From the IMG/VR virus record IMGVR_UViG_3300042887_003321, positions 1-64,000 of that record: a DNA stretch of 64,000 bases; one strand, given 5' to 3'. This document shows, one piece after another, positions 8,322 through 24,828 of this stretch. A program made the translations under genes and the position numbers. Positions within the stretch are counted from its first letter, which is position 1. Each line of letters starts with the position of its first letter. This DNA is from a virus. The notes under the pieces are model-generated. The model saw nothing but the letters and a program-made list of their open reading frames with translations, made no database searches and had not been told where the DNA came from.

Positions 8322-9989
8322 TTATTGACCGGAGATAGTCTCCAATCCGTTCACATACACTTTACCATAGAACTCACCTCTCACCATTTCTTTGGCGTAG
8401 CGGGTCATAACACCCTTACGAGGAGTAAAGTTCTTATAGTCATACACAAGCGGAGTCATAATTAATGGAATGTATGGAGCGTAAACAGCACCAGTTTCCA
8501 AGAATTGTGTTCCTTTGTAACCCAACAACACAAGGTTTTCTTGCATATATGGATTCTTATACACTTTGTAACGCTGAGCGAAAGAACCTACACGGGTTAA
8601 ACCGAATGCGAATTCTCTCTCAGCACCAGTTCCATCAGCTACATAGCCAGGAATTGATTCTAACACAGTTGCAACATCAGGAGATACTACTAAGAAGTTT
8701 GCACCACCACGCATTGTCTTAGCGTGAATTTGGTTAGAAACTCTTTGTAATACAGTTCCGAATGTAGCGAACCAAGTTCCCTGAATGTAAGCTTGTCCGT
8801 TCAAGTTAGTATCTTGTACGAATGCACTACCATTCCAAACTTGTCCGATTTTTGCAGACCAGTAACCTGTAGTCAATGCGTTTTGAATTAACATATCCAA
8901 GATTTCAAAATCAATCTCTTGTGATACATATTCAGATAACATTGAAGTTAATTCTGCTTCTGCATCAATAGAGTGATATGCGTTCAAGTCCTGCGCAAAT
9001 TCAGGTGTCCATTGTGCTTTCAACTTACGAGTCTTAGCAACAATCGGAATTGAACGCATCTCAATGTTCAATTCTGGCACATTCAAATCGGTTTCAGGAT
9101 TTACTTCCATTGCAGATTTAGTTGTTTCAAAATCACCACGAGTATCAGATGTTGGTTGTTTTTGGTATTTTACAATAAGGTTTTGTTGAGCACCTGCTGC
9201 TGTCAACGAACCACTTACAATAAACGAAATGGTTGTATCGTTTACAATTTTTGTAAATTGTGGGAAGAACGCAGATACACCAGTACCTTCAATTGTAAAG
9301 GCACGAACACCTTCCAAATCAGGTCTTGTCAAACCAGCAACTGCAAGTGTTACTTTGTTAAACGCGGCTGAGGCACTGTAAGTAGTAGTAAATGCTGAAT
9401 CCCAATTAAACTCATCATCATCAGATGCTTTAGCAGGAATTACTGATGTGATAGAACCCGTTGTGGTTGCTGGTGCGAATGAACCAGAAACTCTAATAGT
9501 TGCTGAATCATCATTGATGGTGTAACCGAAACGGCCAGCACCATATAGACCACCTGAAGACTGGTTAGCAGTTTCGGTGATACCAAATACTGAGTCGGCT
9601 TGTGAATCTTTACCTGAACCAGTTGTGAAACCTGGCTGACCTGTTCCATACTTAAAATCTAAGTAGAAAATAAGACCGGAAGGAAGGTTCATTGGTTGTA
9701 CTGAAACGAACTCTTTCGCAGCGATTTCAGAGAAAATACGACGAACAAGCGGAAGAGCTACACCATTCCACTCTTCACCATTTGCACCAAACATATTGGT
9801 TGCAGTTGCTTCAGTTACTAATTGTTTTGCTTGGTTTTCCAAAAGTTGTGCCATATTGGAAATTTCAGTCTCATTAGAAATTCCTTCTAAAAGACCTGTT
9901 TTTTTCCACTTAGCAACTAAACCTTTGGCTTCTTTACGAAGCACTCTTTCAAATCCAGCGCTTTCGTTTAAAATGCTTTTTATATTCAT
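8322..9989 (-). CDS. gp23: Major capsid protein (gp23-like)
   Basis: A 555-residue T4-type major capsid protein (T4 gp23 is 521). Residues 1-60 form a helical N-terminal propeptide (MNIKSILNESAGFERVLRKE). A candidate prohead-protease site follows: V58-T59-E60 before A61 (QLVTEATATN), matching the hydrophobic-x-Glu rule of T4 gp21 and close to the T4 cut at residue 65. After it comes VALPLVRRIFSEIAAKEFVS, then VQPMNLPSGLIFYLDFKYG, hallmarks of the family. The C-terminal part holds PELNIEMRSIPIVAKTRKLK and TPRKGVMTRYAKEMVRGEFY. The gene follows the scaffold gp22 and is closed by a terminator, as expected for a highly expressed late gene. Confidence 0.95.
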   Translation of the reverse strand: MNIKSILNESAGFERVLRKEAKGLVAKWKKTGLLEGISNETEISNMAQLLENQAKQLVTEATATNMFGANGEEWNGVALPLVRRIFSEIAAKEFVSVQPMNLPSGLIFYLDFKYGTGQPGFTTGSGKDSQADSVFGITETANQSSGGLYGAGRFGYTINDDSATIRVSGSFAPATTTGSITSVIPAKASDDDEFNWDSAFTTTYSASAAFNKVTLAVAGLTRPDLEGVRAFTIEGTGVSAFFPQFTKIVNDTTISFIVSGSLTAAGAQQNLIVKYQKQPTSDTRGDFETTKSAMEVNPETDLNVPELNIEMRSIPIVAKTRKLKAQWTPEFAQDLNAYHSIDAEAELTSMLSEYVSQEIDFEILDMLIQNALTTGYWSAKIGQVWNGSAFVQDTNLNGQAYIQGTWFATFGTVLQRVSNQIHAKTMRGGANFLVVSPDVATVLESIPGYVADGTGAEREFAFGLTRVGSFAQRYKVYKNPYMQENLVLLGYKGTQFLETGAVYAPYIPLIMTPLVYDYKNFTPRKGVMTRYAKEMVRGEFYGKVYVNGLETISGQ

Positions 9990-10015: not shown

Positions 10016-11155
10016 TTATTTTTTGATATTAGCGAGTTTTTGGAATCTCATTGCCAATGAAGAACCTTCGGTAATGATACCAGCAGGCTTTGTTCCTTTA
10101 GTTGGTCTTGATGCAAATGATTCTTTTACAACTCTATTTTGTGTTTTTCTTGCAACATTAAGATTTTCACCCAATGTAGCGAAAACTAATTTTACTTCTC
10201 TCAAAGATGAAGCACGGTCAAAGTTTTCAACAACTTTAACTTTTTGCTTTTCATTCAAATCAAAGTTTCTGAAAAGTTTGTTAGTGTATAAAAGTTTTGC
10301 ATTTAAAAGGTTTACCTCATTGATGGTATTCTTCAATGATTTGATAACTTTATATGCTTCTTCTAAATCACTCTTCATTTCATCAGCTTCTTCTTCGGTC
10401 ATACCAGCAGTATCTTCTTCATCTTCAGCAGGTACATCACCATTCATTTCTCTAAGGGCTCTGATAACCTCATCTAAATTAACTTCTTCATCACCATCTT
10501 CTTCTTCTGCAACAAAATCACCTTCTTCAGGATATTCAGTACCACCAGTTAAATCATCTACTTTGTTATCACCAGTTCCAATTGCAGAAGATTCCAATTC
10601 AGTTAATCTCTTACTGATTCTTTCACGAATTCTTTTTAATTCGGTGATTTCAGGATTTTCCATTTCTTCCTCTTCTTCAGTTGTGATGGTTTCATCTTCT
10701 TCACCACCCATTTCAGCTTCCAATTCTTTGATAATTGATTCTAAATCCAAATCCGACATATCCTCTTCTTCACCACCCATTTCATCCTCATCATCTTCTT
10801 CTTCGGCTTCTTCACCACCCATAGTACCCATCATCATTTCATCTTCTTCTTCAGTTGTCATAGTGTCATCTTCTTCACTACCCATTTCATCTTCTTCAGT
10901 TGTCATGGTTTCATCTTCTTCACCTTCGTAGCCTTCACCATATCCTTCTTCAGTACCCATCATCATCTCATCTTCTTCGGTTGCAAGAGTTTCATCATCT
11001 TCTAACTCTTCGGCCAATTTGTGAGACAACATAGACTGTAGTCTTGGTGTGAATGCTTCCTCAAGGGCGATTTTTGCATTTGCTAATGCGGTTTCCTTAA
11101 CGGCTTTAGCATCGGCGATTGCTTCTTTAAGCAAATCTTTTTTGCCTGTTTTCAT
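10016..11155 (-). CDS. gp22: Prohead core scaffold protein (gp22-like)
   Basis: A 379-residue, extremely acidic protein. The centre, about residues 50-165, is a low-complexity run of Glu/Asp with repeated EEDE, MTTEE and MMMGT units. The conserved C-terminal part, LLNAKLLYTNKLFRNFDLNE followed by KQKVKVVENFDRASS, is the signature of T4-like gp22 scaffolds. The N-terminus is a basic helix with LLKEA, a possible protease or targeting site. It forms the internal core around which capsid protein assembles and is degraded by gp21. It has an AGGAG site and lies directly before gp23. The acidic repeats create long false frames on the other strand. Confidence 0.88.
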   Translation of the reverse strand: MKTGKKDLLKEAIADAKAVKETALANAKIALEEAFTPRLQSMLSHKLAEELEDDETLATEEDEMMMGTEEGYGEGYEGEEDETMTTEEDEMGSEEDDTMTTEEEDEMMMGTMGGEEAEEEDDEDEMGGEEEDMSDLDLESIIKELEAEMGGEEDETITTEEEEEMENPEITELKRIRERISKRLTELESSAIGTGDNKVDDLTGGTEYPEEGDFVAEEEDGDEEVNLDEVIRALREMNGDVPAEDEEDTAGMTEEEADEMKSDLEEAYKVIKSLKNTINEVNLLNAKLLYTNKLFRNFDLNEKQKVKVVENFDRASSLREVKLVFATLGENLNVARKTQNRVVKESFASRPTKGTKPAGIITEGSSLAMRFQKLANIKK

Positions 11156-11294: not shown

Positions 11295-11552
11295 TTATTT
11301 TTCTAAACTTTTTAAATATTGTTTTCTTTTTGCTAATTCTAATTGTTTTCTTTTTGAAATAGATTTAGGAACAAATTCAGTTCTTTCCCTTAATTCATCC
11401 ATTATTCCACTATCTTTAACCATTTTTTTAAAAAGCCTCATTGCAGCATCTACATTGTTTTCTACTACTTTTACTGCAATTCCCCCACCGGGTTTATACA
11501 TTAATTCTCTTCTGACTTTTTTCTTTTTTGGTCTTTCTTCGTTTTCACTCAT
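11295..11552 (-). CDS. rpsU: Ribosomal protein bS21 homologue
   Basis: An 85-residue basic protein matching bacterial ribosomal protein S21. After a Lys-rich N-terminal extension (residues 1-22) comes GIAVKVVENNVDAAMRLFKK followed by MVKDSGIMDELRERTEFVPK, then a basic helix (SISKRKQLELAKRKQYLKSL). This corresponds to the V-x-x-x-E-N ... A-x-x-x-F-K-K ... E-x-R-x-R-x-x-F-x-P pattern of bS21. The protein binds the 30S platform near the anti-Shine-Dalgarno end of 16S rRNA and affects mRNA recruitment. Phage copies are known and can replace the host protein. No Shine-Dalgarno is visible before its ATG (ACAAAGTTACG), unlike many neighbours. It sits inside the head gene cluster. Confidence 0.85.
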   Translation of the reverse strand: MSENEERPKKKKVRRELMYKPGGGIAVKVVENNVDAAMRLFKKMVKDSGIMDELRERTEFVPKSISKRKQLELAKRKQYLKSLEK

Positions 11553-11908: not shown

Positions 11909-13399
11909 TTATTTTTTGTGTGATTGATATCCCTTACCCTTCATCCACCAAGCCAATGCCCAAGGATTATCAATACCCGGTTCATCTTTCATTGCTTTTA
12001 CTGTCTTTTCCCATCCTTCGGGTGCAACTTCATTTTTTAGTTTGTTATTCTCCATAAATGGTTTAAATGCCGATGTAACTTTATCTATACTCATTCCATC
12101 AAATTTGTTCTGCATCTTAACATCACCTGAATTATATAGTTTTAACAACTTCTCTGCGGTTTTCTTATCAACTTTGGTAGAACCAATACGAGAGGTTGAA
12201 CCATTAGCCACCTGCTTTAATAAATCAGATAATCTTGCGGTTGCCTCACTTAACGACTTTTTTTTTAAAAGACTTGTTAATCTCATAGATTCATTGGTAA
12301 ATTCCTCTGCATTCTTTTTATCGGCTGGGTCTACATCAGTTACTTTGTAAGTTTTCCCATCAACAGTAAAACTATCTTTGCCTGCTGCTATTGCCTTTGC
12401 TCTTTCTGCACCAAACTCATTACCTTCTTCTATTTCAACATCGTTTAATGATTCTTTAATAGAATACTTCATATGAGATGGCGCTGAACTTTGCAATGCT
12501 TTCATAGCAATTAACAAATCACCCTTACCTTTACCAGATAATACTTCGTATCTCTCACCGGTCTTTTCATTGTAAACAATTACTTTTGCTTCATTCACAT
12601 TCTCTTTTAACTTTTTTGCTAAAACATCATCGGTATAGTATTGAGTTCTACCACCACCTTGAAACTTATAGCTGTATTTATCTTCTTTTGGTAAATAATC
12701 AATTGATACCAATTTCATTTTTACAGGTTTTACCATCCCAGAACCATCCCCACCTACCATCATAGTAGCTCCAACTTTCATTAGTTTATCATTTGCTTCA
12801 TTAACTCTTTTTTTGTTTTTGAGGAATGAACCCAATTTCATATTACTCATATTTTCTCCTACGAACTCTTCTGCGTTCTTTTTATCTTCTGAATCTACAC
12901 CTGTTACTTTGAAACTTTTACCACCTACATTAAAGGTATCATCACCCGATGCTATTGCTTTTGCTCTTTCTGCACCAAACTCATTACCTTCTTTAATTTC
13001 ATAATATTTACCTAACACCTCACCAATCTCATCATACGATGATTCTAATCTTTGTTGAAGAGTTGCTACTTCTTTAATTGTGCTTGAAAAAATCTTAAAT
13101 GATTCATTCATTGATTTCATATGGCGATTAACCGTTACTTTATCAAACCAATCACCAGTTTCTTTTAAGGTTAATTTTTCAGCGGTTTCTACGATGTTTT
13201 TAATATTCTCATAGGCCTCCATCAAATTACCATTGTGATAAATTGCTTCACCGATTTTTCTATAAGATGCCACCGCTTCAATAAAAGCACGCTTTTCATC
13301 AGGTGTCATTGATGTATCATCTAAATCTTCCTCACCTATGTTTAATCTACGATAATCTAAGTGTTGAGATTCTTTAAGTAAATTTAATAATTTTTTCAT
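11909..13399 (-). CDS. Multi-domain head (poly)protein with duplicated EGNEF domain
   Basis: A 496-residue modular protein. It opens with a basic helix (MKKLLNLLKESQHLDYRRLN). A helical domain follows, to about residue 135 (NLMEAYENIKNIVETAEKLT; LQQRLESSYDEIGEVLGKYY). Next comes a small domain EGNEFGAERAKAIASG...FNVGGKSFKVTGVD, a beta module, a second EGNEFGAERAKAIAAG...FTVDGKTYKVTDVD copy, a helical domain, and a C-terminal APEGWEKTVKAMKDEPGIDN / PWALAWWMKGKGYQSH module common in marine phages. Several domain boundaries carry VNEA or similar Glu sites (RVNEAN, ENVNEAK, SLSEATA), as in the 462-aa neighbour. I infer an internal head polyprotein cut by gp21. No enzymatic motif was seen. Confidence 0.7.
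   Translation of the reverse strand: MKKLLNLLKESQHLDYRRLNIGEEDLDDTSMTPDEKRAFIEAVASYRKIGEAIYHNGNLMEAYENIKNIVETAEKLTLKETGDWFDKVTVNRHMKSMNESFKIFSSTIKEVATLQQRLESSYDEIGEVLGKYYEIKEGNEFGAERAKAIASGDDTFNVGGKSFKVTGVDSEDKKNAEEFVGENMSNMKLGSFLKNKKRVNEANDKLMKVGATMMVGGDGSGMVKPVKMKLVSIDYLPKEDKYSYKFQGGGRTQYYTDDVLAKKLKENVNEAKVIVYNEKTGERYEVLSGKGKGDLLIAMKALQSSAPSHMKYSIKESLNDVEIEEGNEFGAERAKAIAAGKDSFTVDGKTYKVTDVDPADKKNAEEFTNESMRLTSLLKKKSLSEATARLSDLLKQVANGSTSRIGSTKVDKKTAEKLLKLYNSGDVKMQNKFDGMSIDKVTSAFKPFMENNKLKNEVAPEGWEKTVKAMKDEPGIDNPWALAWWMKGKGYQSHKK
12287..12427 (-). repeat. EGNEF domain copy 2 (internal duplication)
   Basis: Encodes EGNEFGAERAKAIAAGKDSF through NAEEFTNES. It is nearly identical to the copy at 12851-12991 over the first 14 residues and clearly paralogous to its end; the DNA is close to identical around the EGNEFGAERAKAIA stretch. 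Confidence 0.85.
12851..12991 (-). repeat. EGNEF domain copy 1 (internal duplication)
   Basis: Encodes EGNEFGAERAKAIASGDDTF through NAEEFVGEN. A more distant third version (EGNAFTGALYNARKEGLKEF) lies in the 484-aa gene at about 23578-23673. Confidence 0.85.
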
Positions 13400-13425: not shown

Positions 13426-14814
13426 TTAATAAATATCTAATTTTCCATTATTAGATATGCGGGCAACTTTGATAAATGTAGATTTTTTTGCCGATTCTTT
13501 GATTACAACAATTCCATTCTCATCACCTCTTTTAGCAGTTTTAATACCACCCTCAATTGAATCTAATTTATGTCTTACTTTGTTTGAGCCTTTTACATTA
13601 CCATTTTTATCCGATGGAACTAATGTTGCCGAAAAATCATCCATATCCACAATTTTATAATATCGGCCACCTTCAATTCCTTTTAACATAGTAAATCCCT
13701 GTCCCAATATTACCGAACCTATTTTTAAGTCAGTTGGATATTTGGCTTCGTTTACTGATTCAGTTGTTATCTTTTTTGATTTAAAATATGCAATTACATC
13801 TTTACCAGTATCAAATGCTTTTTGACCTCTCCAAGAAGAATGATACATCCAATATGAATTGCTTCCATCTTCCCAATCAAAATCACCCGAAGATATTTCT
13901 CTACCATCATAGGTTAAATACCCAACACCTTGTTTAGAATAAAAACGATATTTACCATCTCTAAAATTAACATCTTCGTTTACCGATTCGGTTTTACGCT
14001 TACTAACTACAACTCTTTGATGTCTAATTTCATCTTTAATTGTATTAATCAATGAGTTCATATCTTTGTGGTCCGATACTTTAGTTTCTTCGTAATTACT
14101 TTTACCATCATCACCTTTCCAGTTAAACCCAACATAGTCTTTATTTTTTCCAACATATTTTATTTCAACTCTAGTATTACCAACTTTAATAGTAGAACCA
14201 TCCTTTGGTAATTCTGCTTCGTTTACTGATTCACTCATCTTAAAATAGAAATATTTTCTCATATAGTCCAATGACTTTATGATATCTTGTAATTCTCTTT
14301 TACCCTTTGGTCCAAGTTCCGCATCTTTCAAATATGCACTTAAAACTGCATATGCTCCATTTACAAATTGGTATGGGTTTTCAGCTTTTACAGTATATGA
14401 AGCCTCATTTACTGATTCTAAATTCAAACTTCTTTGTGCGTTAGTCAAACCACTAATGATAGATTTTAATCCACCCTTAACACCTTCAGTATCTTTAGCT
14501 TGAACTTTTTTGTCCAAAATTTTGGTGTTCATTTTTAAAAAGTTGATGATTGCGTTTTGAACTGCGTTCCAATTTAAATCAGCTTCGTTTACTGATTCGG
14601 ATACATTAGAATCCCTAAGAATAGACTGAGCCATAGTTGAAACAAAGTTTATTTTAGCTTTAGATAGTGTTTCTAAATCATCTTTTGATAACTTCTTTAA
14701 AGCCATCATAAGTTTTTTAACGGCCGGAGAATTTGGGTTTATTTTTTTAATATCACCGTAAGTTGCTTTTAACAAATTTATTTGATTCTGATTAATAGAT
14801 TCTTTTAATCTCAT
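13426..14814 (-). CDS. Putative head polyprotein with five ESVNEA/D junctions
   Basis: A 462-residue protein made of small unrelated domains separated by the same hexapeptide. ESVNEA occurs at residues 73-78, 133-138, 195-200 and 352-357, and ESVNED at 276-281. The pieces are about 77, 60, 62, 81, 76 and 106 residues: two helical, one helical with Tyr/Phe-rich end, then three beta-rich ones (TRVEIKYVGKNKDYVGFNWK; VGYLTYDGREISSGDFDWED; LKIGSVILGQGFTMLKGIEG). V-N-E before A fits the hydrophobic-x-Glu cleavage rule of T4-like prohead proteases and resembles the VTE/A site of this phage's own capsid protein. The gene starts with a four-base overlap on gp21, so protease and presumed substrate are co-translated. 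Function of the released domains is unknown. Confidence 0.75.
   Translation of the reverse strand: MRLKESINQNQINLLKATYGDIKKINPNSPAVKKLMMALKKLSKDDLETLSKAKINFVSTMAQSILRDSNVSESVNEADLNWNAVQNAIINFLKMNTKILDKKVQAKDTEGVKGGLKSIISGLTNAQRSLNLESVNEASYTVKAENPYQFVNGAYAVLSAYLKDAELGPKGKRELQDIIKSLDYMRKYFYFKMSESVNEAELPKDGSTIKVGNTRVEIKYVGKNKDYVGFNWKGDDGKSNYEETKVSDHKDMNSLINTIKDEIRHQRVVVSKRKTESVNEDVNFRDGKYRFYSKQGVGYLTYDGREISSGDFDWEDGSNSYWMYHSSWRGQKAFDTGKDVIAYFKSKKITTESVNEAKYPTDLKIGSVILGQGFTMLKGIEGGRYYKIVDMDDFSATLVPSDKNGNVKGSNKVRHKLDSIEGGIKTAKRGDENGIVVIKESAKKSTFIKVARISNNGKLDIY
13429..13435 (-). promoter_or_regulatory. TATTTAT core motif at end of the 462-aa gene
   Basis: Coding strand AGATATTTATTAATAACTG. The motif forms the last codons of the 462-aa gene (..DIY stop) and lies 29 nt before the ATG of the 496-aa gene. 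Confidence 0.4.
13745..14598 (-). repeat. Five dispersed copies of the ESVNEA-coding 17-mer
   Basis: Plus-strand GCTTCGTTTACTGATTC is exact at 13745-13761, 14216-14232 and 14582-14598. Variants lie at 13973-13989 (TCTTCGTTTACCGATTC) and 14402-14418 (GCCTCATTTACTGATTC). Spacing is 180-243 bases and always a multiple of three. Near-identical DNA between dissimilar domains suggests recent module insertion at the linker. Confidence 0.9.
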
Positions 14815-15449
14815 TTTATTTCTCCAAAATTACATTCGCAATATCCACCAATTTCACAAATAATATCTCTCATAATATCGTTTGCCTTTTGATATTTATT
14901 AACATTATTAACATTACGATTAACACCTTCATTAACAGGCTTTAAAAACGCACCATAGGTTGATGGGTTACTTACAAAATCCCAACATATTAAATCAAAA
15001 TCACCCTCAACTGCAACTGTCCCATCTTCTTTGATTTGGCGAACCGAACCCATACCCCGTGATGATATACCAACTGTACACCCTGCTTCTACTAGCTCTT
15101 TAAGTATTCTACCCGCTGGGGTATTAAGTATTTCTACTTTCCCAACTACATCTGTACCATCCCACCAAATATCTCTAATAATGTGCGATGTGTTCTTTAA
15201 TTCAACTACAGAAGATTCTGGGTGGTCTAATTCTCCATAAGCACGATTTTCTTTGATTTCCCTACCTTTGTATTTTAAAACTTCACGCTTTAATATACTT
15301 TCGGGATATACTCTACCATTTTGGTTTTTTTCGTTTGCTCTTTGTAGAACACCACTTACGATAAGTCTACCATCACCCTTCATCGCAGCTTCTTTGAGCT
15401 GCTGGGGTTTTACATCAAATACAATAGTATCAACTAATAGCTGTTTCAT
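14811..15449 (-). CDS. gp21: Prohead core protease (gp21-like)
   Basis: A 212-residue serine protease of the T4 gp21 type, the same length as T4 gp21. The catalytic His lies in GELDHPESS (H76) and the Ser in VGISSRGMGS (S129/S130). NGRVYPESILKREV and LICWDFVSNPSTYGAF are further family signatures. It cuts scaffold, capsid and internal head proteins after hydrophobic-x-Glu during maturation. Its own tail has a candidate self-cleavage site (LKPVNEGVN) and its front LKEAA. The tail has a short Cys-containing segment (ICEIGGYCECNFG). It overlaps the putative polyprotein gene by four bases. Confidence 0.92.
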   Translation of the reverse strand: MKQLLVDTIVFDVKPQQLKEAAMKGDGRLIVSGVLQRANEKNQNGRVYPESILKREVLKYKGREIKENRAYGELDHPESSVVELKNTSHIIRDIWWDGTDVVGKVEILNTPAGRILKELVEAGCTVGISSRGMGSVRQIKEDGTVAVEGDFDLICWDFVSNPSTYGAFLKPVNEGVNRNVNNVNKYQKANDIMRDIICEIGGYCECNFGEIK

Positions 15450-15452
15450 TTT

Positions 15453-15977
15453 CTATGCACCCAATTGTTTAATCTTATATGAAATACGATTTAATCTTTC
15501 TGATATTTTGGAAAAATTGTTTCTTGTCTTTTTCCAATATGCGTTGGATGAAACACCCATTTCGGTTTTTAATTTTATATTTTGATTTACCAAGTGCTCT
15601 ACTTCGTAAATTTTTCTATTAATTTCTTTGATTGCTTTATTGATTTTTAACTGGGGAGAACCCATTTCATCTTTTCGGTATTGGCGATAATTTAATTCAT
15701 TAATAGCATCTTCAATACCCTGCTCCCATCTCTCCAAAAAATTTCTTTTTACACTTTTTATTTTTTTATACCCCAATACTTCAATATGGTCATCATCCAT
15801 ATCCTTTTCACTTTTCGCAAAAGCGTATGGAGTTTTGGGTGGGCCAGCCCCACCATCCAAATTAGAGGTAACATTTTGTTCTTCCAGCTCTGCATCTTTT
15901 TCATCCTGCGGCTGTTCATCAATTTCTTCTAGCTGCTTGAATTTTTTATCAAGCTCCTCAATTAGAAATCTACTCAT
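15453..15977 (-). CDS. Conserved head-region protein of unknown function
   Basis: A 174-residue protein. The N-terminus is a charged helix (FLIEELDKKFKQLEEIDEQ) and an acidic, disordered stretch. GAGPPKTPYAFAKSEKDMDD follows, then a helical C-terminal half rich in Lys/Asn (ERWEQGIEDAINELNYRQYR; AIKEINRKIYEVEHLVNQNI). It lies between the 276-aa protein and gp21, where T4 has small core proteins gp67 and gp68; a minor prohead core role is plausible from position and composition only. It starts one base after the upstream stop codon. Confidence 0.7.
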   Translation of the reverse strand: MSRFLIEELDKKFKQLEEIDEQPQDEKDAELEEQNVTSNLDGGAGPPKTPYAFAKSEKDMDDDHIEVLGYKKIKSVKRNFLERWEQGIEDAINELNYRQYRKDEMGSPQLKINKAIKEINRKIYEVEHLVNQNIKLKTEMGVSSNAYWKKTRNNFSKISERLNRISYKIKQLGA

Positions 15978-22563: not shown

Positions 22564-24018
22564 TTACCAATATGAGTTTATATCCTCACCACCACCGATT
22601 TTAGACCAATGACGGGGTAGGTTGCAAGACCAATAACCTGGCGATGTTTTATCGGTTTTTTCAGGACAGTTATGTCTATCTGAAAACGCTTTCCTTGCCT
22701 CTGGGTCATTTATTTTCGCAGTTAATCCACCCTTTACATCCCCAAAGGTTACTTTTCTGATGTTATCACTTGATGGGTCTTTTACATATACCACATACTT
22801 TTTACCTTCATCTGGATTTCTTTTTGGTGAATTTAATTCTACTTCCCTTTCCTGATACTCTGCTTCAGCCAACATTGGGAAATCTAATAAAACTTTCTTA
22901 CCCTCATACACTGCAACCTTACCCAAATCAGAATCTAAAAACCATTCATCACTTTCGTTCATCGGCATGAACTGACCTTTTCTCCACAAGTTCCTACACT
23001 CATTTACTAACTTAAAAAATTTGGGAGAACCATATCTAAACACATTTTCAGAAAGTGGTTTTTTATTTTTCAAATGCCATTCCAACCCTTCACTAATTCT
23101 TTTCTTACTCTCACCCAAAGGATTACCATTTACATTCAACTCACCATTCAAATAATGTTTTGCATTTACCATCAACTCTTTTGCACGAACAATATCAGAT
23201 TGCCACCAATGAGGAAAATCAATCTCTTCATCGGATTTATCAAATTGATTTAACATTTCATAAAGTTCTTTTGCGTATTTTGCAATACGAAACAAATCAG
23301 CTTTTAACATATTAGGTTCATCATCCTGGTGCCCTACATCAATATCTTCAGTTAAACTTTTTAACTTTTTTAATTTAGTTGTTAAATCGGCCATATTTTT
23401 TAAATGGGCCTTTTGTGCGGCAGTTCTTTTATTTTGAGGTATCTTACTATAAGCAGCAGTATCTTTAGCATTATCTTTTAATGTTTTCTGAATACTTAAC
23501 ATTTCCTTTTTTTGTGCTGCTTGTTCTTTACCAGCTTTTTTAACGGATGATGTACCAGGTTCATCATCATCATCAACTTCGGTTATTACAGGATATTTTT
23601 TTCCGTTGAATTCAAACTCTTTTAATCCTTCTTTTCTTGCATTATAAAGCGCTCCAGTGAATGCATTACCTTCATTTATATTATCTTGTGCAAGAATTTG
23701 AATATCTTTTATATCACCCACAAATGGGCCTTGAAGGGTTCTGATGGTTACTTTATTACCCTGAATTTTTAGAACCATCCCAGTTTTATTTTTTGATTTA
23801 AAGTGAACAAAATCACCAACTTCAAATCCTAAATTTTGTTTGGCTTCATCTACAGATTCTTCGGTTTTCCAACCACCACCTGCTGCTTTATATTGTTTTG
23901 CAGCCCAACCGTTGGCGTAGGCACTTGGGTAAACGTCAAACTTTTTCTTTGCTTGAGATTTATAATAAGACCATTTTGCTGGGTCTGTTGGAACATTCTT
24001 TTCTACTATTAATTTCAT
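22564..24018 (-). CDS. Modular head-associated (poly)protein
   Basis: A 484-residue chain of small modules. After MKLIVEKNVPTDPAKWSYYK comes a DUF5872-like piece (KFDVYPSAYANGWAAKQYKA) ending at EESVDEA. A KOW-like barrel follows (VGDFVHFKSKNKTGMVLKIQ), then an EGNAF domain after INEG and a Lys/Ala-rich linker. Next is a helical domain (NMLKADLFRIAKYAKELYEM; EIDFPHWWQSDIVRAKELMV), an EGLEWHLKNKKPLSENVFRY module and a terminal domain with KKYVVYVKDPSSDNIRKVTF and DKTSPGYWSCNLPRHW. Several borders have hydrophobic-x-Glu sites (ESVDEA, NINEG, RISEG, MLAEAE). It shares modules with the 496- and 106-aa proteins, so all may be processed head proteins. No catalytic motif was seen. Confidence 0.7.
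   Translation of the reverse strand: MKLIVEKNVPTDPAKWSYYKSQAKKKFDVYPSAYANGWAAKQYKAAGGGWKTEESVDEAKQNLGFEVGDFVHFKSKNKTGMVLKIQGNKVTIRTLQGPFVGDIKDIQILAQDNINEGNAFTGALYNARKEGLKEFEFNGKKYPVITEVDDDDEPGTSSVKKAGKEQAAQKKEMLSIQKTLKDNAKDTAAYSKIPQNKRTAAQKAHLKNMADLTTKLKKLKSLTEDIDVGHQDDEPNMLKADLFRIAKYAKELYEMLNQFDKSDEEIDFPHWWQSDIVRAKELMVNAKHYLNGELNVNGNPLGESKKRISEGLEWHLKNKKPLSENVFRYGSPKFFKLVNECRNLWRKGQFMPMNESDEWFLDSDLGKVAVYEGKKVLLDFPMLAEAEYQEREVELNSPKRNPDEGKKYVVYVKDPSSDNIRKVTFGDVKGGLTAKINDPEARKAFSDRHNCPEKTDKTSPGYWSCNLPRHWSKIGGGEDINSYW
23578..23673 (-). repeat. EGNAF domain, third diverged copy
   Basis: Encodes EGNAFTGALYNARKEGLKEF followed by EFNGKKYPVI, aligning with the two EGNEF copies of the 496-aa protein (same Gly, Phe, Ala and GK-Y positions). 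Confidence 0.65.
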
Positions 24019-24031
24019 TTCTTACCTCAAA

Positions 24032-24550
24032 TTATGGAACATATTTTGGAATATTCATCTTAACAAATTGTTCAAAATCCTTTGGGTCCGGTCCATTTGC
24101 ACGAATTTCAAATCCTGTAAGGTTTTTGTTTCCTAAAATTAAATAACCTTTTGATGTTTCCCAATTTTCAGGTTTATCATCATCCATATTATCAAATTGA
24201 TTTGGTAGATAGGTAACTAACACATTAAATATAACATGATGTCCACCAACAATCGAACTCATTGTTGGTTTAACTGGGGTGTTCCCAACTCTGAATTTTC
24301 TAATCATTATCCCGTATCCTTTGCCGGGATTTTCGTATCTTCTAAACCAATTATCGGTTTCTAAACGATATATTGCGGTGTTGCTTGTAACTTTTCTCAT
24401 CAGGATTAACCTAACAGCTGTATCGTTATAAGAATCTCCTGGCTTATTTCTTAACTCTTTAACTGTAATATCAGTTGAATAAACCCCTTCGTTGGTTAAT
24501 TCGGATTTTACAGCTTTATTAATTAACTGCTTTAATTCGTTTAGTTTCAT
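24032..24550 (-). CDS. Unknown protein with N-terminal basic helix (possible capsid cargo)
   Basis: A 172-residue protein. Residues 1-22 form a basic amphipathic helix ending in an Asn-Glu-Gly site (MKLNELKQLINKAVKSELTN then EG). The remainder is a compact beta-rich domain (AVRLILMRKVTSNTAIYRLE; VGGHHVIFNVLVTYLPN; GYLILGNKNLTGFEIRANGP). No family was recognised. The same N-terminal design occurs in the next three upstream genes. By analogy with T4 internal proteins the helix could be a capsid-targeting sequence removed by gp21. Confidence 0.65.
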   Translation of the reverse strand: MKLNELKQLINKAVKSELTNEGVYSTDITVKELRNKPGDSYNDTAVRLILMRKVTSNTAIYRLETDNWFRRYENPGKGYGIMIRKFRVGNTPVKPTMSSIVGGHHVIFNVLVTYLPNQFDNMDDDKPENWETSKGYLILGNKNLTGFEIRANGPDPKDFEQFVKMNIPKYVP

Positions 24551-24576: not shown

Positions 24577-24828
24577 TTAATAGTGTTTATCATCGTATCC
24601 GCCTAGCATTCTTGCCTCATGAATAATATCAGCAACTAGACTACCCAAGTTCTTCCAATCCCAATTTATATTTTTTTGCTTACCAATTTTCATTAAGTAA
24701 GTTTCTAAGTTAGCAACCGAATCTTTAAGATCTTTTTCATTTATGTGTGTTGTGGTTACAAGTGGCCCTTCATTTAAAGCCTTTTTGGCTTCCTCTCTGA
24801 TTAACTTTCTTAGTTGTGATACTTTCAT
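24577..24828 (-). CDS. Small protein with N-terminal basic helix (possible capsid cargo)
   Basis: An 83-residue protein. It starts MKVSQLRKLIREEAKKALNE followed by G, the same pattern as its neighbours, then a helical body (LKDSVANLETYLMKIGKQKN; SLVADIIHEARMLGG). No family was recognised. It could be a small internal head protein. A GGAAA-type ribosome site and a TATTTATA motif lie upstream. Confidence 0.65.
   Translation of the reverse strand: MKVSQLRKLIREEAKKALNEGPLVTTTHINEKDLKDSVANLETYLMKIGKQKNINWDWKNLGSLVADIIHEARMLGGYDDKHY

Follow-up and report, generated by a model that had tools for sequence, protein, structure and literature searches.

The window analysed here, a stretch of 64,000 nt taken from positions 1 to 64,000 of the 105-kb IMG/VR virus record IMGVR_UViG_3300042887_003321, contains a phage head operon. 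Its transcribed order is terminase, portal, a 276-aa gene, a gene at the T4 gp68 position (15453..15977, minus strand), a gp21-type prohead protease (14811..15449, minus strand), a 462-aa array gene (13426..14814, minus strand), a second array gene (11909..13399, minus strand), a 106-aa gene, an S21-like gene, an acidic scaffold-like gene and a Gp23-type MCP. The MCP matched PF07068 (Gp23) with an E value of 4e-75. The protease, which is the presumed processing enzyme, matched PF03420 (Peptidase_S77) at 111 bits against a cut-off of 27 (E 5e-32) and PHROG 207 at E 1e-54. Its gene lies upstream of the 462-aa array gene and overlaps it by four bases. The acidic gp22-like scaffold gene (10016..11155) is separate from the arrays, and the bS21-like ribosomal protein gene (11295..11552, minus strand; PF01165, E 2e-11) sits between the array genes and the scaffold, a place in the head operon that it also occupies in relatives, Microcystis phage Mel-JY01 among them.

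The 462-aa protein comprises at least five unrelated segments and five linkers in one ORF. The pentapeptide ESVNE begins at residues 73, 133, 195, 276 and 352 and is followed by A, A, A, D and A, respectively. A conserved N-terminal anchor segment (residues 1-77, MRLKE↓SINQ to NVSE↓SVNE, the arrow marking the presumed cut; 14584..14814, minus strand, as for all parts of this gene) ends in linker 1 (residues 73-77; 14584..14598). It is followed by module A (residues 78-137, containing NAVQNAIINFLKMNTK; 14404..14583) with linker 2 at its end (133-137; 14404..14418), module B (residues 138-199, ASYTVKAENPYQFV; 14218..14403) with linker 3 (195-199; 14218..14232), module C (residues 200-280, AELPKDGSTIKV; 13975..14217) with linker 4 (276-280; 13975..13989), and module D (residues 281-356, DVNFRDGKYRFY; 13747..13974) with linker 5 (352-356; 13747..13761). 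Module E and a C-terminal anchor form the remainder (residues 357-462, AKYPTDLKIG to VIKE↓SAKKSTFIKVARISNNGKLDIY; 13429..13746). Tryptic peptides that span junctions of this protein are SLNLESVNEASYTVK, ITTESVNEAK and TESVNEDVNFR. No family in Pfam, PHROG or PADLOC rose above noise with the 462-aa protein, and 50,697 annotated phage records gave no match to it.

Chance repetition of the pentapeptide was ruled out, with 0.00075 copies expected from composition against the five seen, and no 5-mer present in more than two copies in any of 2000 residue shuffles. Tandem duplication of one domain was also rejected, as the modules are unrelated and each recurs separately in other proteins. The original prediction, made from the letters of the window, had described five ESVNEA or ESVNED junctions at these residues, between unrelated domains, in a gene directly downstream of the prohead protease and overlapping it by four bases, and each of these points was confirmed.

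The second array gene, downstream of the first, has a like organisation. Its product starts with a leader of full form, MKKLLNLLKE↓SQHLDY, and continues with modules bounded by VNE↓A and IKE↓G sites (KRVNE↓A, NVNE↓A and IKE↓GNEF); its orthologues have up to 9 ESVNE linkers (locus L037). In T4, the internal proteins carry leaders of 10-19 residues that are removed by gp21 (PMC9026906). The start of the 462-aa protein, MRLKE↓S, is short relative to the full leader form, and its homologue in L081 has the full leader MRLKKLITE↓S, which resembles the T4 capsid-targeting sequence (CTS). The MCP of this phage begins with the leader MNIKSILNE↓SAGF. The leader pattern (e.g., MKLKNLLNE↓S or MIKLKDILTE↓I) was present at 11.1% of distinct protein N-termini, compared with 0.43% internally. 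Several of the array modules are also encoded singly, immediately after a leader of this kind, as in L042 (MKLKSLLNE↓NASRTAMEIGG), L024 (MKLQDILNE↓VSLTPKAAKFLDAIQ), L188 (MIRLRKILNE↓ILLKEGG), L133 (MIKLKDILTE↓ISAIGG) and L101. An array module and a single leader-bearing gene are thus equivalent units by sequence, and the array linker stands at the place of the leader end.

The linker itself resembles a gp21-type cleavage site. T4 gp21 cleaves after L/I-x-E, with L or I and not V at the published P3 position (PMC9026906). All five linkers of the 462-aa protein read V-N-E, which fits the broader form hydrophobic-x-Glu. Across 132 linker contexts the sequence logo has V/I/L at P3 and mostly A/G/E/S at P1', the Glu at P1 being fixed by the search motif. 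Boundaries that have diverged from the strict motif retained hydrophobic-x-Glu in 165 of 172 cases (96%), against 30% of random windows, and did not keep the rest of ESVNE. The MCP propeptide site, presumed to be the reference gp21 site, is QLVTE↓ATATN, with VTE at residues 58-60 (9810..9818, minus strand), and every MCP orthologue found has the form L(V/L)(T/S/D/K)E↓A. The gp21 of this phage ends in PVNE↓GV, and its orthologues in (V/T/M)NE↓(G/S) or a close variant. Self-processing at the C-terminus is known or thought to occur in T4-like proteases (PMC5694885, PMC9026906), and PVNE↓GV is a probable autocleavage site of the linker-like type. The claims that V-N-E follows the gp21 rule and resembles the VTE/A site of the capsid protein thus hold, the former in its hydrophobic-x-Glu form, with V taking the P3 position in this MCP site as well. 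A minority of linkers have E, V or another residue at P1', and these may be cut poorly.

The position of the linkers within proteins is also informative. Among 152 distinct proteins, a strict linker was found at the protein end once, in an ORF that is cut by the contig end; where a module family is located at the C-terminus, the protein stops directly after the module with no linker. Consecutive linkers were in frame in 392 of 408 pairs, and all 392 intervals were open. It could be argued that ESVNE is instead a flexible linker or docking peptide within an uncut multidomain protein, either of the core or of the injected polyvalent type. Multidomain injected "polyvalent" proteins are known (PMC5512222), and cleavage of the chain in our case is itself deduced from sequence. 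This reading nonetheless appears very improbable to us, as diverged linkers preserve hydrophobic-x-Glu and not the other motif positions, linkers are absent from the C-termini of complete proteins, and the MCP propeptide site and the gp21 C-terminus share the linker-like form.

Searches for relatives indicate that the 462-aa protein is one of a large class and not a lone oddity. A first scan of viral contigs returned 67 loci, and after further scans the set comprised 48 dereplicated proteins, each with two or more ES(V/I/L)(N/D/T)E linkers. A DNA search for two linkers within a fixed distance range, performed without protein similarity, yielded over 200 more stretches; in the stretches fetched, head genes of this phage lineage were present at 177 of 204 new loci, although these had been found from the DNA linker alone. 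The full set holds approximately 200 dereplicated polyproteins with 2-9 linkers each. Rough clustering of 405 internal modules (median length 69 aa) gave approximately 200 families, a count to be read as approximate since single-linkage clustering over-merges some families and singletons may represent split ones. The interchangeable modules range from 50 to 140 aa, and the array proteins are mosaics in which modules recur in varying order with varying neighbours. Module A is the most mobile, with about 10 different left and 10 right neighbours in relatives. Module B recurs in other arrays, and module C is an orphan with no relative in the first loci set.

By MCP, the isolates closest to this phage are Mel-JY01 (58%) and immuto (51%), and the head regions read in them contained no ESVNE arrays. 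In Flavobacterium phage immuto, a cultured phage, the 360-aa protein QQO91879.1 (L073, 10668..11750) is encoded directly upstream of the prohead protease and has several I/L-x-E↓A or G sites without ESVNE. A scan of GTDB genomes with the second polyprotein gave no relatives. The same scan with the MCP gave five contigs, and since three of these are in Flavobacteriales bins, a Bacteroidota host may be guessed at, though only guessed.

Comparison of closely related phages shows where the arrays change. The window and locus L002 are 99.0% identical in DNA over the stretch that begins with the gp68-position gene, includes gp21 and reaches codon ~74 of the array gene, and 97.9% identical from codon ~276 onward. 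The intervening part measures 604 bp in the window and encodes three modules, whereas in L002 it measures 235 bp and encodes a single unrelated module. In the window gene, each breakpoint is located within an ESVNE linker, the 5' one (~14592) in linker 1 and the 3' one (~13988) in linker 4. Similarly, L008 and L037 have genes that are 97-99.6% identical and are distinguished by three cleanly inserted modules, with 17-21 nt common to the insertion ends. A set of 193 distinct indel or replacement events had 386 breakpoints, of which 216 (56%) were at strict linkers against ~14% expected, and in a linker-masked protein BLAST 257 of 681 homology ends were at linkers against 106 expected; these counts are effect sizes and not exact probabilities, because related genomes contribute events that are partly dependent on one another. 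At least five head genes have array insertions. Among these, the gp68-position gene, which has no insert in this phage, is also empty in L020 and L181 and in other relatives carries 1-4 modules at one internal site. In L170 and L175, the gp68-position proteins are otherwise similar but carry two shared modules in opposite order, which is a module permutation. Judged from these alignments, modules behave as cassettes, which can be gained, lost or exchanged at the linkers.

The DNA of the linker, the 15-nt GAATCAGTAAACGAA, is by these comparisons conserved beyond what the peptide needs. GTA is used at 95% of linker positions against 44% in the background of the same genes, AAC at 73% against 31%, and TCA/TCG at 85% against 41%. 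Given this codon skew, which exceeds the gene background, DNA exchange seems to be both the origin of the linkers and what keeps them similar. Each of the 183 distinct linker DNA matches in the first loci set was nevertheless in frame and in the sense orientation, which together with the codon skew points to a protein-level constraint and a DNA-level exchange acting on the same 15 nt. The notion that the conserved 15-mer does nothing more than promote shuffling, with the peptide incidental, would account for the skew and for the 17-21 nt common to insertion ends. We find it scarcely credible given that every one of these matches is in frame and sense and that hydrophobic-x-Glu is retained where the DNA has diverged. 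The role of the linker DNA seems additional to that of the peptide and not an alternative to it.

The tested modules appear to be under purifying selection. The dN/dS of three window modules against relatives was ~0.1-0.4, with values of ~0.1-0.4 for module A and ~0.14-0.26 for module B. Modelled alone, module E was predicted to form a small and compact domain rich in beta structure (pLDDT 84, pTM 0.76). Its predicted fold had no match at E <= 0.001 among the PDB and viral models, and its best structural matches were small uncharacterised phage proteins and KOW/SH3-like ribosomal or Spt5 domains. The AF2 model of the whole 462-aa protein was too weak (mean pLDDT 44) to establish that the linkers are exposed, and the dips in confidence at the junction blocks are a hint only. 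Pfam, PHROG and PADLOC found almost nothing in 57 module representatives, and no polyvalent domain (ART, PBECR, MuF, MPTase and others) was matched by Pfam among them. A pooled PADLOC scan gave weak matches to PD-T4-7, LmuA and MzaA (E 4e-4 to 5e-3), which did not recur in the modules rescanned individually, a subset of the 57. One module in L038 matched the RNA-polymerase-interacting domain CarD/TRCF-RID marginally, at 23.3 bits against a cut-off of 23; this would fit an injected host-takeover protein, but it is one marginal hit and no proof. As this is the only functional assignment of any weight, "effector" is used below for a presumed role.

The location of the arrays invites comparison with the proteins of the prohead core. 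T4 gp22, gp67 and gp68 share the operon neighbourhood and multi-site cutting by gp21, and the T4 core proteins are split into several fragments that mostly leave the head (PMC9026906). The array could accordingly be a sacrificial scaffold or core filler of this kind, shredded by gp21 into pieces that leave the head without a further job, and the site adjoining gp21, the insertion of arrays in the gp68-position gene and the fate of the T4 core fragments are all compatible with this. In T4 the pieces all derive from one core protein, whereas the array pieces are unrelated domains with independent histories. With approximately 200 unrelated module families, purifying selection on those tested, rapid turnover of modules between near-identical phages, a separate acidic gp22-like scaffold gene, and modules that also exist as individual leader-bearing genes, we regard the sacrificial role as unlikely. 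Module number, turnover and occurrence as separate genes appear to favour cargo over core filler.

We consider it probable that the array gene encodes a gp21-processed polyprotein of T4-type internal proteins, in which the linker is both a protease site and a recombination seam. The product would be a precursor polyprotein of the prohead core, brought into the assembling prohead by its conserved N-terminal segment, which in relatives is a CTS-like 10-residue leader. The neighbouring gp21-type protease would then cut C-terminal to the Glu of each hydrophobic-x-Glu linker, here VNE, freeing five or more modules of ~60-80 residues each. At least some of the freed modules may be retained in the head and delivered to the cell together with the DNA, as T4 internal proteins are, and there act on host defences or metabolism. 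Recombination at the linkers would lead to gain, loss and exchange of cassettes, with one 15-nt sequence serving as seam and protease site. A polyprotein with gp21-type sites at its junctions was already part of the original prediction, and it gains support from the junction swaps in near-identical phages, the strictly inter-domain linkers, the retained hydrophobic-x-Glu (165/172), the MCP and gp21 sites, the single-gene modules and the head-operon loci (177/204).

We give roughly even chances to a broader proposal, in which phages of this lineage keep hundreds of small effectors, delivered by the virion, as an exchangeable library of polyproteins in several prohead-core genes, with the 15-nt element used for both exchange and proteolysis. 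In the delivery proposal, the linker would be comparable to an integron repeat in its role in cassette exchange, but exchange would take place by homology.

The closest known systems each differ in a defining feature. T4 IPI-III and Alt are similar in being small proteins of ~60-100 aa that vary among relatives, have a hydrophobic-x-Glu site for a gp21-type protease and carry a 10-residue N-terminal leader of a form similar to that in relatives of the array gene. However, each T4 internal protein has one gene and its own leader, whereas here many are joined in one ORF with internal sites and cassette exchange, and the 462-aa protein does not follow the T4 pattern of one small protein per gene. 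The small injected T4 proteins Ip1-3 inhibit GmrSD restriction enzymes and are strictly specific for their targets (PMC12373910), which shows why a phage might want many such proteins. Polyvalent proteins are likewise multidomain mosaics, often packaged in the virion, for which a role in host conflict was proposed by Iyer et al. in 2017 (PMC5512222). They differ in having large enzyme domains and proposed processing by a built-in metallopeptidase, without a standard inter-domain cleavage linker or gp21 (PMC5512222), and the module families of ESVNE arrays match none of their known domains. The head proteins of phiKZ and SPN3US are processed by a gp21-related protease that cuts after Glu (x-x-Glu), and ejection proteins are packaged, but this involves propeptide removal from single proteins, with multiple sites in propeptides and not between unrelated domains (PMC5694885).

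With its several independent domains and consensus sites for a virus protease, the 462-aa protein has the makings of a viral polyprotein. The polyproteins of eukaryotic RNA viruses and retroviruses are made from one ORF and cut by a virus-encoded protease at repeated consensus sites. Array modules differ from these as interchangeable cassettes whose order and content vary between near-identical genomes. Text searches of the open literature on the ESVNE motif, polyproteins of phages and the isolate closest to this phage returned no earlier description, and no phage polyprotein of this type was found described there, a survey that is not exhaustive and mostly stops short of subscription journals. 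Within that scope, the view that this arrangement is not a described phage system is borne out, and there is a fair chance that the ESVNE array deserves a category of its own. If the interpretation is correct, a polyprotein solves the problem of carrying many injected proteins, a solution known from eukaryotic viruses and undescribed for tailed phages in the open literature searched, and the standard capsid protease is what releases the small proteins of an exchangeable set. The linker alone serves as a search handle that leads to approximately 200 families of small proteins with candidate anti-defence or host-takeover functions, and it could be a natural means of loading several proteins into a T4-like capsid.

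Other genes of the phage have related features. A third multi-site protein (22564..24018, minus strand), encoded outside the gp21-MCP block, contains ESVDE↓A, NINE↓G, SLTE↓D, PMNE↓S and MLAE↓A along with weak DUF5872 and MSSS-like segments. Clusters of small genes with a leader such as MKLSELRQLIREEAKKALNE↓S are found at 24032..24550 and 24577..24828 in the window and at 101.8-105.0 kb of the genome (L070, L071); by its sequence, this longer leader looks like a second class of the capsid-targeting type. An 801-aa cytidylyltransferase-like protein (PF01467; 25856..28261, minus strand) begins with the leader MGNLIKEWIKGVLTE↓E and has an ALTE↓S site in its interior. Its relatives in L183 and L191 have a large C-terminal domain attached through ESVNE-type linkers, and L188 has a version that stands alone behind MIRLRKILNE. 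HAD phosphatase-like genes (containing LRVFDFDDTLVKTTSF) with CTS-like N-termini are present in L024 (11497..12045), L014 (7219..7764) and L034 (7523..8050), their leader-like starts suggesting that enzymes may also be packaged.
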